A DNA stretch of 64,000 bases from Fulvivirgaceae bacterium JP3-4. Its GTDB lineage: Bacteria; Bacteroidota; Bacteroidia; Cytophagales; Cyclobacteriaceae. A program made the translations under genes and the position numbers. The notes under the pieces were generated by a model, which had not been told where the DNA came from, searched no databases, and was given only the letters and a program-made list of their open reading frames with translations. Where the stretch lies: positions 1,240,001 to 1,304,000 of the forward strand of contig JARKND010000005.1 of NCBI GenBank assembly GCA_029309925.1, written 5' to 3'. Positions 2,363 through 44,589 of the stretch are shown here, piece by piece (the stretch's first letter is position 1; every line of letters starts with the position of its first letter).

Positions 2363-2435
2363 GATCTCGTAGCTCAGTTGGTAGAGCATTACACTTTTAA
2401 TGTAAGGGTCCTGGGTTCGAATCCCAGCGGGATCA
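2363..2435 (+). tRNA. tRNA-Lys (anticodon UUU)
   Basis: A full cloverleaf folds by eye: acceptor stem GATCTCG with CGGGATC (one G-U pair), D arm GCTC...GAGC, anticodon stem TTACA/TGTAA around loop CTTTTAA (anticodon TTT), and T arm CTGGG-TTCGAAT-CCCAG. The discriminator is A and CCA is not encoded. The 3' end of this gene is the attachment site of the prophage that follows, and integration leaves the tRNA intact. Confidence 0.97.
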
Positions 2436-2440
2436 CAAAA
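2424..2440. repeat. Left attachment site core (attL)
   Basis: CCAGCGGGATCACAAAA covers the 3' side of the T stem, the acceptor stem and four following A residues of tRNA-Lys. An identical 17-mer lies at 44573-44589 next to the integrase gene. Confidence 0.93.
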
Positions 2441-5041: not shown

Positions 5042-5075
5042 AAAAAGAGTCCTGCATTTCTGCAAGACTCTTAAC
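5041..5075 (+). terminator. Hairpin terminator ahead of the left pentamer array
   Basis: AAGAGTC and GACTCTT, extended inward by TGCA/TGCA across one mismatch, close a TTTC loop; A residues precede and TTAACTTT follows. It overlaps the stop codon of the small membrane-protein gene and immediately precedes the NNACC array. A similar hairpin sits at the same relative place beside the right array. Confidence 0.75.
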
Positions 5076-5086
5076 TTTATGGATAA

Positions 5087-5264
5087 ATCCTCACCTTACT
5101 TACACCTCACCATCCACACCTAACCTTAGCGAACCGAAGCTTACCATACCTGCCATACCGAACCGTACCTCCAACAGAACCAAGCTCACCTAACCACACC
5201 TTACCTGCCGTACCATATCTCAACGCAGCCCAACTAGCCAAGCCACATCGTACCTTACCTGCCA
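5087..5264 (+). repeat. Degenerate pentanucleotide array (NNACC)n, left copy
   Basis: About 175 bases show a five-base periodicity in which most units read NNACC or a one-base variant (TAACC, TTACC, ATACC, GAACC, GTACC, ACACC). The strand has almost no G outside isolated units. A few insertions shift the phase. It occupies the whole gap between two convergent genes. The units are not identical, there are no spacers, and no reading frame is supported, so it is neither CRISPR nor coding. An inverted counterpart lies at 11306-11440. Confidence 0.85.
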
Positions 5265-5268
5265 AAAA

Positions 5269-5754
5269 TTAAAGTGATGCAATTATAGGCGTCACTTGAT
5301 TGACAATATCTTGTAGCTTTTCGTAAGCAACATATTTTTTCTGCCAATAAACCAATTCACGCTTCGCTTTCTCCTTTACAAATTGAAAGTCTTCAGGATT
5401 AGCAATAATTTCATGATACGATTTGTAGGACTGCTTCTTATCCTGCGAATTCTTGCAAATTTCAAAAACAGGAACGTGTACAACTTCATTACCACTTCGA
5501 ATAATGGTGACTTCTAAATTGTTTATGACTGATCGAGCTTGTTGCAGTCGATAATTATGTGCGGCTTTAGTATCGTCCCATTGAAATACTGGATGAAACA
5601 CCGAACTTGGTGGTTTAGCCTCCTGCACTAATACTTCAGCGGTCAAAACACCATACACTGACTTGATTCTTTGCAACTCTTTATTAGCATGCTCTGGATC
5701 GATACCTTTTGCAAGCGCGCGTATGCGCCAATTATATTCTACTTGTTCTTCCAT
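5269..5754 (-). CDS. Conserved phage protein of unknown function (161 aa)
   Basis: Contains VYGVLTAEVLVQEAKPPSSVFH followed by a HPVFQWDDTKAAHNYRLQQAR segment. From memory, this pattern (a leading helical part, then HP-x-F-x-WDD and YR-x-x-QAR) recurs in a family of phage proteins of unknown function, usually beside a gene like the one upstream here. The C-terminal half is a long charged helix. It follows the upstream gene by three bases, so the two are almost certainly co-transcribed. Role unknown, probably in DNA metabolism by position. Confidence 0.65.
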   Translation of the reverse strand: MEEQVEYNWRIRALAKGIDPEHANKELQRIKSVYGVLTAEVLVQEAKPPSSVFHPVFQWDDTKAAHNYRLQQARSVINNLEVTIIRSGNEVVHVPVFEICKNSQDKKQSYKSYHEIIANPEDFQFVKEKAKRELVYWQKKYVAYEKLQDIVNQVTPIIASL

Positions 5755-5757
5755 AAA

Positions 5758-6345
5758 TTATACAGCCAAATCGTATCGTCCATACTGCATTTTTGTTCTT
5801 TCAGGTCTGCCTTCACCAATACCACAACCATATCCACCTGCACGAATCATTTGTAAAAGTCTATCTTGTGAAATAACACCTGCGTTATACTCAATCACAA
5901 GATTTGCAGACCATTCAACGTACTCTGGTCTATAACGAACATCAGCAACGCCCATTCCGATTTTAACCATGTCAGTTCTCTTCCGACTTTCACCGTAAAT
6001 TCTGACAAGCTGTGTTTCTGGACAATCCGCGACAATGAAGATACTTGTCTGCGCATCTTTCATTACTTCACCTATTAATTTTCCACCACGAATAATCGAA
6101 GCTTTAAATCCACTGGCAGGAAAACCTTCCCAAGTATTTGTTGCATCGTAATGTTTCGCTAATTCGACCTCTTCTTCAGGATTTCGAATGTCATGCTTTT
6201 TATTCTTAGCAACGCCTTGTTGTTTGTCCTCAATTGCCTTTCTCATTTTCTCAGAAAATTTGTGGACGATAAGTGGAGAAATTCCCTTGATAGGAATACT
6301 GACTTTAACGATGTCGAAGTCTTTTAATTCTGATTTTTTACCCAT
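5758..6345 (-). CDS. Conserved phage protein with RAMP-like glycine-rich loop (195 aa)
   Basis: Begins with a strand and SPLIVHKFSEK, continues with GFPASGFKASIIRGGK, and ends with a glycine-rich segment GGYGCGIGEGRPERTK followed by a short terminal strand. These features occur in a phage family of unknown function that I recall as a partner of the downstream gene. The order strand, PASGFK-like loop and late G-rich loop resembles RAMP (Cas5/Cas7-like) folds, but that is a structural guess. No catalytic residues stand out. Confidence 0.6.
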   Translation of the reverse strand: MGKKSELKDFDIVKVSIPIKGISPLIVHKFSEKMRKAIEDKQQGVAKNKKHDIRNPEEEVELAKHYDATNTWEGFPASGFKASIIRGGKLIGEVMKDAQTSIFIVADCPETQLVRIYGESRKRTDMVKIGMGVADVRYRPEYVEWSANLVIEYNAGVISQDRLLQMIRAGGYGCGIGEGRPERTKMQYGRYDLAV

Positions 6346-6475
6346 AAAATTTGTTTTAAAGTTGGGTAAAATTAGAACCGAGAAGTGAGCGGTTACATAA
6401 GAGAAATGCCATCTTGAAAATATTTGTACAAGAGTATATTTTCTGCAAGCATTACAAAATGTGTATCTTTATAAT

Positions 6476-7072
6476 ATGGAAAGCCTCGCTAAACTTCTCT
6501 TCGATTTTGACAAATTGCCAGCACGACTAGTAATGATTGTTTTTTTTCTAAGTGCAATTTTACTTTTCGTGCCTCCCGACTTCTTGCAAAAAATACAACT
6601 TGCAAAATTCAATGAATCATTCGGTCATTGGGTTGGAATATCATTCATATCATCAATGGCATTTTTGATTGTATCAATCATTACAAGTGTGAATGCATAT
6701 TTCAAGACAAATAGTTGGCGAAAAGAGTACAAAGAAAATATTCGTCAAAGCATAATCAATTTAGACCCATTGGAACGCTCTATATTAAGAGAGTTCTTTT
6801 TGCAAGGTGGTTGGACTATCAATATGCCAATGGATCATCCTTCAGTTGTAGGTTTACAAGACAAACACATCATCCGAATTCCACAATCTCAAACAGGATC
6901 GTACTTTATTAATGGTACTGATATGCCATTTACTTTAACAGATGAAGCGAAGAAAGTTTTGATGCCAAACTTGACGTTAATTGGCATGAAAGCTAAGATT
7001 GACCCAAACGACCAAGAAGAAAAGCAACGATTGCTTGGTATGCGGCCACCGTGGATCAGAAATAGATTTTGA
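6476..7072 (+). CDS. SieB-like superinfection exclusion membrane protein
   Basis: Two hydrophobic helices occupy about residues 15-35 (LVMIVFFLSAILLFVPP) and 55-75 (WVGISFISSMAFLIVSIIT), followed by a soluble domain of about 110 residues with LDPLERSILREFF. This layout and wording match the superinfection exclusion protein B family of phage lysogens, which blocks growth of related phages from the membrane. An upstream in-frame GTG would add five residues; the ATG was preferred. It is a lone rightward gene among leftward ones, as expected for a lysogenically expressed accessory gene. Confidence 0.6.
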   Translation: MESLAKLLFDFDKLPARLVMIVFFLSAILLFVPPDFLQKIQLAKFNESFGHWVGISFISSMAFLIVSIITSVNAYFKTNSWRKEYKENIRQSIINLDPLERSILREFFLQGGWTINMPMDHPSVVGLQDKHIIRIPQSQTGSYFINGTDMPFTLTDEAKKVLMPNLTLIGMKAKIDPNDQEEKQRLLGMRPPWIRNRF

Positions 7073-8598: not shown

Positions 8599-10974
8599 CT
8601 ACAAGTCATTGCCTTGCAAGAGTCGGGCTTCCAGCGTCTCCGCATCTCTTATGGTAATCGTCATCTCAGGTGGCAATTCTCTTGTGTCAACGTTATGCAC
8701 ATATGCTTCCGAGTAAACGCCACCTTCTGTTAAGGCTTTTACCATCGGTACGACTCTTACTTTATAACCTCGTCTAGGCAATTGGCCGGGAGGTTTTGTA
8801 AAATAACGATCAGCGAAATGCTTGTGTAATAGCTTGCCAAAGAACTGTACCGATTTGCCGGGCACGAATTGCGACATTTTTGTAACCTCCATATAAACCT
8901 CAGTTGCACTTAGTTCGGTGTTGTCATCCGGCACAACGTGTCTTAAGATTAGTTCTTCTTCCATTGAAGGTGTTTCGAACCTTACTTGGTATTTGTCAAG
9001 TTCGCGTTTTTCAACATCAGACAAATAATGTCTTTCGCCATTTTTAAACATGTAAAGAGATTGCGCAAAGAATTGCTTCAAATCGATTTCGAAATTTTGA
9101 TCAATCTTATTTGCCACAGGCAGAACCCAAAACCTTCTGTTACCTGTTGGGTCTTTTAGAAAGTTCTGATTGTTGATTGTGCCGATCATGCTTGCATATC
9201 TTTTAAAAGAAGTATTGTTGATTTTGTAAATCTGTCGTAGCGAAAAGTTATCAGCACTCATCATGGCTTTTAAAGCATCTAAGTTGTCTTTCTTATTTGT
9301 AAGTGTTTCTAGTTCGTCATTTAAGATTACAAACTTGGATGTCATTTCTAACAAATGGTCTTTGTTACCTGCATCGATATTCTTTACAGTGAAGTAGTCG
9401 TTCATATTCAAACCACATTCTTTAAAGACACTAAAAAGTCTTTTCACAAATCTGGTTTTACCAAGTCCACCTAAGCCTTGCAGAATGATCATGTTTTCGT
9501 TGTAAGAATCAGTCAGCAGACCAGCCCAAAAGCCAACGAACCATAGTCTAAAGAAGAGTTGTGCCCATTTGATGTCCTCTTCATTTGATAAGTTTAATGC
9601 ATTGACAACTAAATCAAATCGATCCACTTTATCCCATTCTGGCAGACTGTTCTTAAATTCAGCCACAGGATCGAATTTGTAATTCATCAATGAATACACT
9701 TTCAACTTTTCATACACTTCGTTTTTTTGTTTTGCTGGTAATTGCAATACGGAAAACGTGATAGGTAATAGATGAAGATCATCTTGAAAGCGACACCATT
9801 CTTGTTTTGCAAAATCATGAATCTCTAAATTGCAATACATCATGTTGTATCGAGTCCATATTTTATTCTCAGCCAACTTTGTGAAGAAATACCTTAACTC
9901 ATTTGCGAACATGAAATCATCAGAGAATTCATTGCGTTTCATTTTGAAACCAATCTCACTCGCAATGTAAAATATCGAGTTAATTGACGGTGACTTTTTA
10001 ACGTTATACTTCTTTTGATGAAATTTCTTGTCGAAATCGTTTTGATTGAAGCTTGCATCCATTTTTGAAAAGATCAAAGCATACTTGTAAGCGAGATTAG
10101 CAGGCAGATCTTTTTTCAAAGCGAAGATGACTGTTAGCCAATTTGCATACGTTGATGTTATTGATTTCTTTTTAGTAGTTAACCAATTGACCAATTGGTC
10201 AAGCTTGGCAACGATGTCTTCAGTTTTAATAGTTAGCTCTTTAACATTGCTGGTCCATTTAACCAACAAATCTTCGACTATTGCTTGATCTACGTTTTTC
10301 TTCCTTATTTCAGCAACAATGTCAGTGTCAAACTTTAAAATTTCAATTTCATTGTTAATATAGAGATTGGCATCATAGCAGACGAAACAGCAACGCGCTA
10401 AATCATGTATTTTGGAATCAATCTCTTTCGAGTTCAAGAAGCCAAACGATGTATAGTGTTGTGCTATTTTGAAGAAAGCTTCAGTATGGAAGGCTTGAGT
10501 TTCTTCAACGCTTTCAAACTCTGACGGTCCATTTACAAGATGGAATATCTTAAGACCTTCATTTGATGGTGATGTAAAGGCAAATACAACTGATTTGTTA
10601 AATGCATCGTCTTTCTTTTTTAAATAGTTTAACAATTCATCTTTCTGAGCAACGGTAATATGGTCAAAGTCCATATGTACGATGTAGCTGTAGTAAATCA
10701 AATTAGCTGTCTCTCTATTTTCATTGAACAAGCCTGCCGGTGTGAATGCTCCAAACTTCTGCACTTTCTCATTTGTATAAGTGGCTTTATCAGCGTCTTT
10801 CGTTAAATCCAATTGATTAACAAATGCGCGAAATCGCATTGTCTCAGTTTTCAGGCTGTTATCCTGCATGAACGTTAACATCTCAGCTAAAGTCATTTCA
10901 TCCATCTGTGAAGTAGCCAAGATGTTTTTAAAGTAGTGAAAATATATTTTGTCTTTGATCTGATCGATAGTCAT
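8599..10974 (-). CDS. VirE-type phage replication helicase/primase-like protein
   Basis: The N-terminal third resembles the BT4734-like domain found in front of VirE domains in Bacteroidota (LIYYSYIVHMDFDHI near residue 100). The C-terminal half holds a virulence-associated-E ATPase: Walker A GLGGLGKTRF near residue 500 and a Walker B-like KFVILNDELE near 546, with SMIGTINNQNFLKDPTGNRRFW after it, typical of VirE and D5-like helicases. By analogy it unwinds or primes phage DNA. It is the only recognisable replication protein here, so host polymerase and clamp are presumably used. Its start overlaps the stop of a small upstream gene (TAATG). Confidence 0.85.
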   Translation of the reverse strand: MTIDQIKDKIYFHYFKNILATSQMDEMTLAEMLTFMQDNSLKTETMRFRAFVNQLDLTKDADKATYTNEKVQKFGAFTPAGLFNENRETANLIYYSYIVHMDFDHITVAQKDELLNYLKKKDDAFNKSVVFAFTSPSNEGLKIFHLVNGPSEFESVEETQAFHTEAFFKIAQHYTSFGFLNSKEIDSKIHDLARCCFVCYDANLYINNEIEILKFDTDIVAEIRKKNVDQAIVEDLLVKWTSNVKELTIKTEDIVAKLDQLVNWLTTKKKSITSTYANWLTVIFALKKDLPANLAYKYALIFSKMDASFNQNDFDKKFHQKKYNVKKSPSINSIFYIASEIGFKMKRNEFSDDFMFANELRYFFTKLAENKIWTRYNMMYCNLEIHDFAKQEWCRFQDDLHLLPITFSVLQLPAKQKNEVYEKLKVYSLMNYKFDPVAEFKNSLPEWDKVDRFDLVVNALNLSNEEDIKWAQLFFRLWFVGFWAGLLTDSYNENMIILQGLGGLGKTRFVKRLFSVFKECGLNMNDYFTVKNIDAGNKDHLLEMTSKFVILNDELETLTNKKDNLDALKAMMSADNFSLRQIYKINNTSFKRYASMIGTINNQNFLKDPTGNRRFWVLPVANKIDQNFEIDLKQFFAQSLYMFKNGERHYLSDVEKRELDKYQVRFETPSMEEELILRHVVPDDNTELSATEVYMEVTKMSQFVPGKSVQFFGKLLHKHFADRYFTKPPGQLPRRGYKVRVVPMVKALTEGGVYSEAYVHNVDTRELPPEMTITIRDAETLEARLLQGNDL

Positions 10975-11153
10975 TACTTCGTTGCATTTTGTTTTTGTCT
11001 GACATTATTCAGATAGTCAAAGAATTGTGTGTATGATAACTTTGATACACCCAATGCGATTGCGATTTCAGCCTTCCATTTTTCCATTACTGCAAATGTT
11101 TCGGCATGAATGGCAATGTGTTTGAATTCATTTTTCTTCATTTTTTCTCTCAT
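10974..11153 (-). CDS. Small helical DNA-binding-like protein (55-59 aa)
   Basis: An open frame of 59 codons (or 55 from a second in-frame ATG) ends in a TAA that shares a base with the ATG of the helicase gene, a coupling signal. The protein begins MREKMKKNEFKHIAIHAE, continues with VMEKWKAEIAIALGVSKL and ends QKQNATK. The strand-helix-helix outline resembles the other ribbon-helix-helix-like proteins of the prophage. Its coupling to the helicase makes it a good candidate real gene despite its size; a loader or repressor role is speculative. Confidence 0.65.
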   Translation of the reverse strand: MREKMKKNEFKHIAIHAETFAVMEKWKAEIAIALGVSKLSYTQFFDYLNNVRQKQNATK

Positions 11154-11305: not shown

Positions 11306-11440
11306 GGTACGGTGGGTTGCGGTATGGCTAGGTTGGGTGTGTTGGGTTGTGGTAAGGCAGGTGTGTTGAGCTGAGGTTTGGTTTGGTGCGCTGAGGTATG
11401 GTTAGGTAAGGTATGGTAAGGTCGGGTTGGGTGTGTTTTG
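11306..11440 (-). repeat. Degenerate pentanucleotide array (NNACC)n, right copy (inverted)
   Basis: On the plus strand about 135 bases read as five-base units of the form GGTNN (GGTAC, GGTAT, GGTTA, GGTAA, GGTCG, GGTTG, GGTGT) with some GCTGA and GTTGA variants. Read on the minus strand it is the same NNACC pattern as the left array and likewise follows a strong hairpin. The G-rich strand has a GG pair nearly every five bases. It lies in the divergent region between the helicase operon and the rightward operon. A minus-strand open frame across it simply reflects the repeat. Confidence 0.85.
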
Positions 11441-11446
11441 TTACGC

Positions 11447-11485
11447 AAAAAAATGCTTTCATACCAATGAGGGCATTTTTTTTTT
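11447..11485 (-). terminator. Strong bidirectional hairpin beside the right pentamer array
   Basis: AATGCTTTCAT and ATGAGGGCATT pair over 11 bases (two G-U pairs) around ACCA, with an A run on one side and nine or more T residues on the other, so it can terminate in either direction. On the minus strand it directly precedes the NNACC array, mirroring the left array. Confidence 0.75.
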
Positions 11486-43134: not shown

Positions 43135-44304
43135 TTATGGAATTAGATTCATTTTTTCAGAAGTGTTGCGTCTACTGTGTTTGCCGTAATAGAAGATCAT
43201 ATCTGACTTTGACCAACCTGTCCAAAGCAGAATATCATCTAAAGGAATATTAAACTGTAACCATCGTGATGCAGCAGTATGTCGACCAACGTGGGATTTT
43301 AGCTTCGTATAAAACGGAACCATTTCGAAGTCAGTTAAGCTTACTCGCCAACGAATTTCTTCTGTCCAGCCTAATGTCTTTCCTAGCTCCTTAATTGATC
43401 GATTGAAGACGGGACCCGCCATCTTTGGCGCGTTCATTATGATAGGTAAAAGTTTATTATGAATTGGTATTTCGAATACTTCGTTGGTCTTTTGTGTCAC
43501 ACGTTTTAACATTCCGTTCTGAATGTCTTCGTTTCGCATGAGCAAGAAGTCGGAGTACCGCATGCCTGTGTAAATAAGAATCAGAAAGATTTTTCTGACT
43601 CGATCATGATGACCTTTTAAGTCTGCGTCCCATAATTGCTGAATTCGGTCTTCACTGATTACGATGAAATCTGATTTATAAGTTTTAGGCCGAATTTGGT
43701 CCCAATTAATGTCGGGCAGTGGATATCCTTTTCGTCTAGCCCAAACATGGAATCTTTTGTAGTTCTTAAATCTCAATGCGGCAGTGTTCGCACTGACTTT
43801 TTGGGATGGTGTTTCTTTGCTCTCATAAAAGTATTCGAGAATTACGGCAACATCTTGTTCGTCAAGCCTAGAAACTGGCTCAGTATAGTCTAGCAATATT
43901 TTTCCCAATGTCTCGTAACGCCATTTCAATCCACGATTGAGTTTCAATTGGCTTGACATAAAGCGTTTGAAAATGTCTGGCATCTTGGCGTTTTTGAAAT
44001 CAATTTCATCTTCGACTTTACGTTGATCGGTGGGTTTTCCGCTCAAAATGTCTTTGACGCGTAAAAGACACAACATGCCGTTTTGTTGCAAGTCCTTCAT
44101 GATCGCTGTGTCAAGCTCGCGCTTCTTTTCTAAGATCAATTCATTGAGTTTGCTGGCATATTCAACTGCACTTTTTTTGACGAACCCTTTGCTGTCAACT
44201 GCCGATGCTGGCACTTTTACCTTAGTGTTGTGGTAAATGCGTTTGCCTTGATGGGCAATGTGAGCGTACACTGCACCTTGATGATAAATTAGATTTGACT
44301 CCAT
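43135..44304 (-). CDS. Tyrosine-recombinase integrase of the prophage (389 aa)
   Basis: Catalytic residues by eye: Arg near 246 in YTGMRYSDF, His-x-x-Arg near 336 in HVGRHTAASRW, and Tyr near 370 in FYYGKHSRR. The usual LLGH motif is LLWTGW here, with Trp for the second His. An N-terminal arm domain (IYHQGAVYAHIAHQGKRI) and a SAM-like core domain precede. The ATG chosen is MESNLIYHQG; a GTG 21 codons earlier is open too. Directs insertion into tRNA-Lys. It reads away from attR. Confidence 0.92.
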   Translation of the reverse strand: MESNLIYHQGAVYAHIAHQGKRIYHNTKVKVPASAVDSKGFVKKSAVEYASKLNELILEKKRELDTAIMKDLQQNGMLCLLRVKDILSGKPTDQRKVEDEIDFKNAKMPDIFKRFMSSQLKLNRGLKWRYETLGKILLDYTEPVSRLDEQDVAVILEYFYESKETPSQKVSANTAALRFKNYKRFHVWARRKGYPLPDINWDQIRPKTYKSDFIVISEDRIQQLWDADLKGHHDRVRKIFLILIYTGMRYSDFLLMRNEDIQNGMLKRVTQKTNEVFEIPIHNKLLPIIMNAPKMAGPVFNRSIKELGKTLGWTEEIRWRVSLTDFEMVPFYTKLKSHVGRHTAASRWLQFNIPLDDILLWTGWSKSDMIFYYGKHSRRNTSEKMNLIP

Positions 44305-44503
44305 AAGCTGATTGTATTGCTTTACAAAATTACTTTTAGTGCCTTCGGACTTATAGCGCAAAATCACGCATAATTGCGAAAGGCATTTCTTATACTTATA
44401 GAGCTAAAATATTTCGGGTTGTATTCCCGTGACAATTATTTAATAGTTATATCATGGATCATATCATATTAAGTAGGTTTTCATAAGTTTTAAAAACCTA
44501 CCA

Positions 44504-44572: not shown

Positions 44573-44589
44573 CCAGCGGGATCACAAAA
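44573..44589. repeat. Right attachment site core (attR)
   Basis: Second copy of CCAGCGGGATCACAAAA. Only this part of the tRNA is duplicated; no complete tRNA precedes it. The next mobile element's integrase starts 249 bases to the right. Confidence 0.93.

Follow-up and report, generated by a model that had tools for sequence, protein, structure and literature searches.

Introduction

The closest described system to the locus studied here is VIPR (Viral Interference Programmable Repeat), reported on bioRxiv in 2026 (PMC13142463), the only paper on VIPR among the matches listed in our literature search. It pairs an ancestral RAMP protein with vrRNAs made up of 9-16 YNNGG repeats and a structured tail; the GGY/NN repeats adjoining the small RAMP protein are the guide RNAs, which follow a one-nucleotide-skip DNA code and bring about transcriptional repression, with targets in rival phages (PMC13142463). 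Such skip-1 targeting of DNA has been reported for the SUSP1 VIPR (PMC13142463).

Here we analyze a 64,000-nucleotide stretch of DNA (the window), in which an initial annotation had noticed two inverted arrays of five-letter repeats. Our data suggest that these repeats are very probably guide-RNA genes of VIPR, a CRISPR-like system carried by phages, here residing in a prophage. A puzzling repeat would thus find its explanation in a very recently described guide-RNA system, in this case within a prophage from another host, probably one of the Bacteroidota. One of the arrays is detached from the vipr gene, which raises the question of whether vrRNAs can work in trans.

Results

Two GGYNN arrays with a constant scaffold and variable letters

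The inverted second array of 5-nt units, with its own hairpin, proved to be real. Array 2 (11306-11434, plus strand) comprises 26 units, 20 of them with an exact GGT or GGC, and has a chain score, which rewards GGY at each fifth base, of 42.5. Array 1 (5102-5259 on the minus strand, or to 5263 with its leading GGCA) has 32 units, 21 with an exact GGY, and scores 33.1. By comparison, shuffling the window 100 times with dinucleotides preserved gave a maximum score of 9.3, and 20 Markov windows gave one of 7.5. No further array in the window passed either of two scans, and an exact-pattern search of the 5.8-Mb genome for (GGTNN)4GGT found array 2 only, at four overlapping places.

The NN letters and the tails are unlike between the two arrays. 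Column entropy (H) was 1.7-2.0 bits at the NN positions and 0-1.4 bits at GGY, a difference to which the chain scoring itself contributes by favoring GGY. The initial annotation had argued that a form shared without sequence identity implies a function, and we agree, since the arrays combine variable NN letters with a largely constant GGY scaffold, a pattern that guides would show.

Table 1. Features of the prophage region, in coordinates of the window
Feature	Position	Strand	Remarks
attL-like 17-bp direct repeat, tRNA-Lys 3' end	2424-2440		
Intrinsic-terminator-like hairpin with T run, 3' of array 1	5045-5072	-	folding; consensus terminator scan
Array 1	5102-5263	-	GGCA (5263-5260), 10 units, GGCA (5209-5206), 10 units + 1 nt, GGCA (5154-5151), third segment
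Candidate vap: 161-aa phrog_15946 protein	5269-5754	-	5 nt lie between its stop codon and array 1
vipr: 195-aa Vipr-family protein, phrog_4652	5758-6345	-	
SieB superinfection-exclusion gene	6461-7072	+	adjoins vipr, opposite strand
VapE-like primase-helicase	8599-10974		
59-aa ORF	10974-11153		
Array 2, first segment (putative guide)	11306-11355	+	10 GGYNN units
GGCA, 4-nt register-shift unit	11356-11359	+	splits array 2 segments
Array 2, second segment (putative guide or guides)	11360-11434	+	15 GGYNN units
Terminator-like hairpin with T run, 3' of array 2	11447-11482	+	folding and sequence; absent from consensus terminator scan
Integrase-like ORF	43135-44367		assigned by eye
attR-like copy of the 17-bp repeat	44573-44589		integrase-like ORF alongside

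The two arrays lie in what is likely a prophage of about 42 kb inserted at a tRNA-Lys gene, with the copies of a 17-bp repeat as its ends (Table 1); tRNA-Lys alone reached the gathering score in an Rfam scan. The genes between the arrays are as initially described, namely the vipr/candidate vap pair, SieB, and the helicase gene with its small partner.

On the GGY strand, a hairpin with a T run is found 3' of each array, so that both RNAs would read repeats first, then hairpin. The order given in the initial annotation, hairpin then NNACC units, thus holds for the C-rich strand and is reversed in the RNA. The folded stretches including the hairpins had z-scores of -4.6 (array 1) and -3.5 (array 2). 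A consensus terminator scan gave 4 matches in 7 kb, against 4.2 expected, and only the array 1 hairpin was among them. A sigma-70-type scan showed no promoter above background near array 2 (20 sites in 7 kb vs. 23.4 expected).

The gene pair beside array 1 encodes a Vipr-family protein and a candidate accessory protein

The 195-aa protein is, by its sequence, a member of the Vipr family. A profile built from 30 sequences of the family matched PDB chain 36pp_D, named 'SUSP1 Vipr protein', with an E-value of 4.8e-39, and the window protein by itself did so with an E-value of 1e-4. The underlying alignment (A1) left out three partial sequences (L049, L034 and L098) of 32 Vipr hits; G175, R180 and G189 are invariant in it. 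All 30 aligned members matched phrog_4652, a family without a named function, while the Pfam RAMPs family was matched by one of the 30 (E = 0.0019). Pfam and NCBIfam gave no name to either gene of the pair. A search of genome contigs, which reaches close relatives only, returned no match to the protein, and among 295 genomes of the family it was present in its own genome only.

Homologs of the neighboring phrog_15946 protein occur together with vipr in 12 other loci (L069, L041, L042, L036, L005, L126-L129, L216, L217 and L139), and all 12 aligned homologs (L217 left out) matched phrog_15946. This candidate vap had no PDB sequence match at E<=1.

GGY arrays accompany vipr in other phages

We scanned viral contigs for exact (GGTNN)5GGT, without using any gene in the choice, and took at least 120 loci. 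Degenerate arrays, defined by a score of at least 16 and at least six different NN, were present in 46 of the 120 listed viral loci, many of them beginning directly after a stop codon. A homolog of the window-type 195-aa protein was encoded in 32 of these 46 loci compared to none of the other 74, among the matches listed; the remaining 14 array loci had no Vipr in the stretch examined. GGY arrays were seen in 40 of 41 loci with a vipr HMM match, but since 33 of the 41 (32 viral loci plus the window) had been preselected for arrays, this set informs on orientation and is no independent test of co-occurrence. Loci picked by the protein alone had arrays in seven cases out of seven: L216, L217 and five named-phage loci (Gordonia ODay and UmaThurman, Mycobacterium Quico, cyanophage Cy-LDV1 and Felixounavirus LMP34; 5 examined of 148 matching records, including 2 of 5 Gordonia and 1 of 27 Mycobacterium records). 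In the actinobacteriophages L126-L128, the Vipr homologs are annotated as hypothetical proteins and the GGYNN arrays have 32-63 units.

The sole vipr-hit locus without a GGY array, L139, carries other 5-nt repeats. In this viral contig, positions 1100-1930 hold hairpin-separated 5-nt arrays with a non-GGY consensus that is roughly ANANN by eye.

The initial annotation had proposed that the arrays are inverted boundaries of a replication block, origin or fork-control elements, or G-rich strand structures, and inverted arrays do lie on both sides of the primase-helicase gene. The arrays, however, travel with vipr. L216 and L217, whose Vipr proteins are 64% and 61% identical to that of the window, each have one array, immediately following the same pair of genes, and no further array was found within their 17.3 and 9.3 kb of sequence, respectively; their arrays are identical, so the two apparently represent one virus. 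Relatives with only one array had been named as half of the case against these roles, and one array is what both showed. The inverted pair is consequently no conserved frame around the replication block in these relatives, and nothing we found points to the arrays as the limits of a replication unit, with the vipr/candidate vap pair and other prophage genes lying between them. G-quadruplexes were rejected for the predicted minimum structures of both arrays, and a G3+ motif is absent. We therefore regard boundary, origin, fork-control or G-rich structural roles as extremely improbable.

A detached array that would act in trans

Across the 41 vipr loci, 62 of 65 arrays are on the same strand as vipr. 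The three exceptions are array 2 of the window, one array in L023 (28 nt from the vipr frame) and one in L114 (overlapping the vipr frame). Array 2 stands 4.8 kb from vipr on the opposite strand, compared to 28 nt at most, or overlap, for the other two. As the genome has a single vipr copy, any use of array 2 would require action in trans.

We consider it highly likely that array 2 is a second, detached vrRNA array of the prophage VIPR, served in trans by the single Vipr; we infer its transcription, its loading by the window Vipr and its use. In the scheme that we propose, Vipr would bind RNA from both arrays, in cis from array 1, downstream of the candidate vap, and in trans from array 2, which would form a separate transcription unit. 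On the DNA, successive NN pairs would recognize N1N2-x-N3N4-x and so on, and genes of rival phages or prophages would probably be repressed. The Vipr-vrRNA complex, the skip-1 code and repression are carried over in this scheme from other VIPR members (PMC13142463).

Alternatively, array 2 may no longer work, as a decaying remnant left by a rearrangement or by another VIPR locus, with array 1 alone active. Its detachment and opposite strand would fit this idea, as would the lack of a leading GGCA and the fact that no counterpart was seen in the close relatives L216 and L217. The inexact GGY units (6 of 26 in array 2; 11 of 32 in array 1) also make decay possible, but the share of exact units is higher in array 2 (20/26) than in array 1 (21/32). 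In addition, array 2 has kept its own 3' hairpin with a T run, and its phase is held across 26 units except for one GGCA shift. A relic is thus unlikely in our view, and a working detached array remains our preferred reading.

GGCA punctuates the arrays of a VIPR subgroup

In the arrays of the subgroup to which the window belongs, GGCA shifts the 5-nt register by one base. The segments between GGCA in the window have 10, 10 and about 10 units in array 1, and 10 and 15 in array 2. GGCA accounts for 50 of the 66 four-base steps in 38 Vipr loci; another nine are GGCG, all in L086, whose array (5361-5821) has GGCG punctuation in place of GGCA. GGCA-type sites number 59 in 10 of the 11 subgroup loci, including three GCCA variants admitted by the pattern, and the eleventh locus, L069, shows 4-nt steps. 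Spacings between GGCA correspond to 9-12 units plus GGCA in 24 of 45 cases (modes at 49, 54 and 59 nt) and range from 9 to 93 nt in the remaining 21, in a subgroup that was chosen after GGCA had been noticed and that matches the set of loci whose Vipr is closest to that of the window by tblastn. GGCA directly precedes 8 of the 15 subgroup arrays. Outside the subgroup, a GGCA step occurs once in L100 and a GGCAGGY site once in L073. Longer recurring steps of 8-9 nt separate segments in L024 (4600-5060) and L031 (2217-3406).

GGCA is possibly a delimiter between guides; alternatively, the GGCA steps may reflect overlapping vrRNAs in a staggered array. Tentatively, and with some doubt, we suggest that a VIPR subgroup that includes Gordonia, Mycobacterium and cyanobacterium phages might use compact, tail-less strings of guides split by GGCA, with further banks like array 2 located elsewhere in the prophage and acting in trans, and that one such bank might target a rival VIPR (L139) through its accessory gene. 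If true, the layout would be simpler than the repeat-spacer layout of CRISPR, and GGCA punctuation would provide a testable rule for where guides end and start.

Searches for targets of the window guides

No established target of the window guides emerged from our searches. The skip-1 cores of 8 units, six in all for the window guides, matched 36, 2, 7, 34, 1 and 24 viral stretches, and matching past the cores looked chance-like, as judged without a formal test. Matches reached 20/20 in L163, over units 3-12 of the second segment of array 2, and 20/20 in L170, for an array 1 guide read through GGCA, 16 bases being preselected in each case.

A further match, of 19/20, was found in L139 for the 10 units that directly follow GGCA in array 2. 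It falls at the 3' end of the phrog_15946 gene, with the skip base on the wobble position, about 1 kb from the Vipr homolog (E = 1.2e-26), and among 104 target-pattern loci L139 alone has a hit to vipr or of the phrog_15946 type. The chance of such a coincidence is up to about 6%, by a hand estimate from the 104-locus rate. Because 16 of the 20 bases were preselected, this rival VIPR locus is only a weak lead as a target of array 2.

In its own genome, one guide had 4 matches vs. 6 for a control pattern, and another, at 3 mismatches, had 1 vs. 0. A search of 290 family genomes with one guide gave a single 2-mismatch match, in an incomplete genome, and genome contigs held no exact match to one guide. 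In all-against-all comparisons, skip 1 gave 15 matches at a score of at least 17 vs. 0 in shuffled sequences, a circular result in that the six hits listed for skip 1 are loci that had been fetched by this rule. Skip 3 gave 12 vs. 1 shuffled, mostly self-matches, and skips 0 and 2 gave none, each vs. 1 shuffled.

That the target scans established no target could also be explained if, in this subgroup, the arrays do not target DNA and bind Vipr only as an RNA sponge or to regulate the Vipr mRNA. The position of array 1 directly 3' of vipr and the candidate vap is compatible with this possibility. Autoregulation or a sponge, however, would need neither variable NN letters nor a detached array, and the SUSP1 VIPR is reported to target DNA by skip-1 (PMC13142463). 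We thus judge it improbable, and favor guides that read DNA.

Discussion

We found no papers in literature searches on pentanucleotide repeats or on Cas7-like phage filaments. The window resembles VIPR in its Vipr-family protein, the neighboring candidate accessory gene and the provirus location, and in having adjacent arrays in which GGY alternates with variable NN (PMC13142463). It differs in that one array stands apart, 4.8 kb away on the other strand, and in that its arrays are cut by a 4-nt GGCA, whereas the SUSP1 VIPR has separate tailed vrRNAs of about 100 nt (PMC13142463).

The RAMPs of Class 1 CRISPR systems (Cas7 and others) share with Vipr a conserved C-terminal glycine-rich stretch, recognized by eye, but the window repeats are 5 nt long and lack contiguous spacers. 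Neither a Cas nor a TRAP family was detected by Pfam among 10 neighboring proteins. The sites of TRAP, the trp RNA-binding attenuation protein, consist of triplets at a 5-nt period in RNA, as in the window arrays; these triplets are GAG/UAG, vs. GGY in the window, and TRAP is a ring protein of another fold. The window system belongs to the already described VIPR kind, to which its detached array 2 would add a guide bank functioning in trans.
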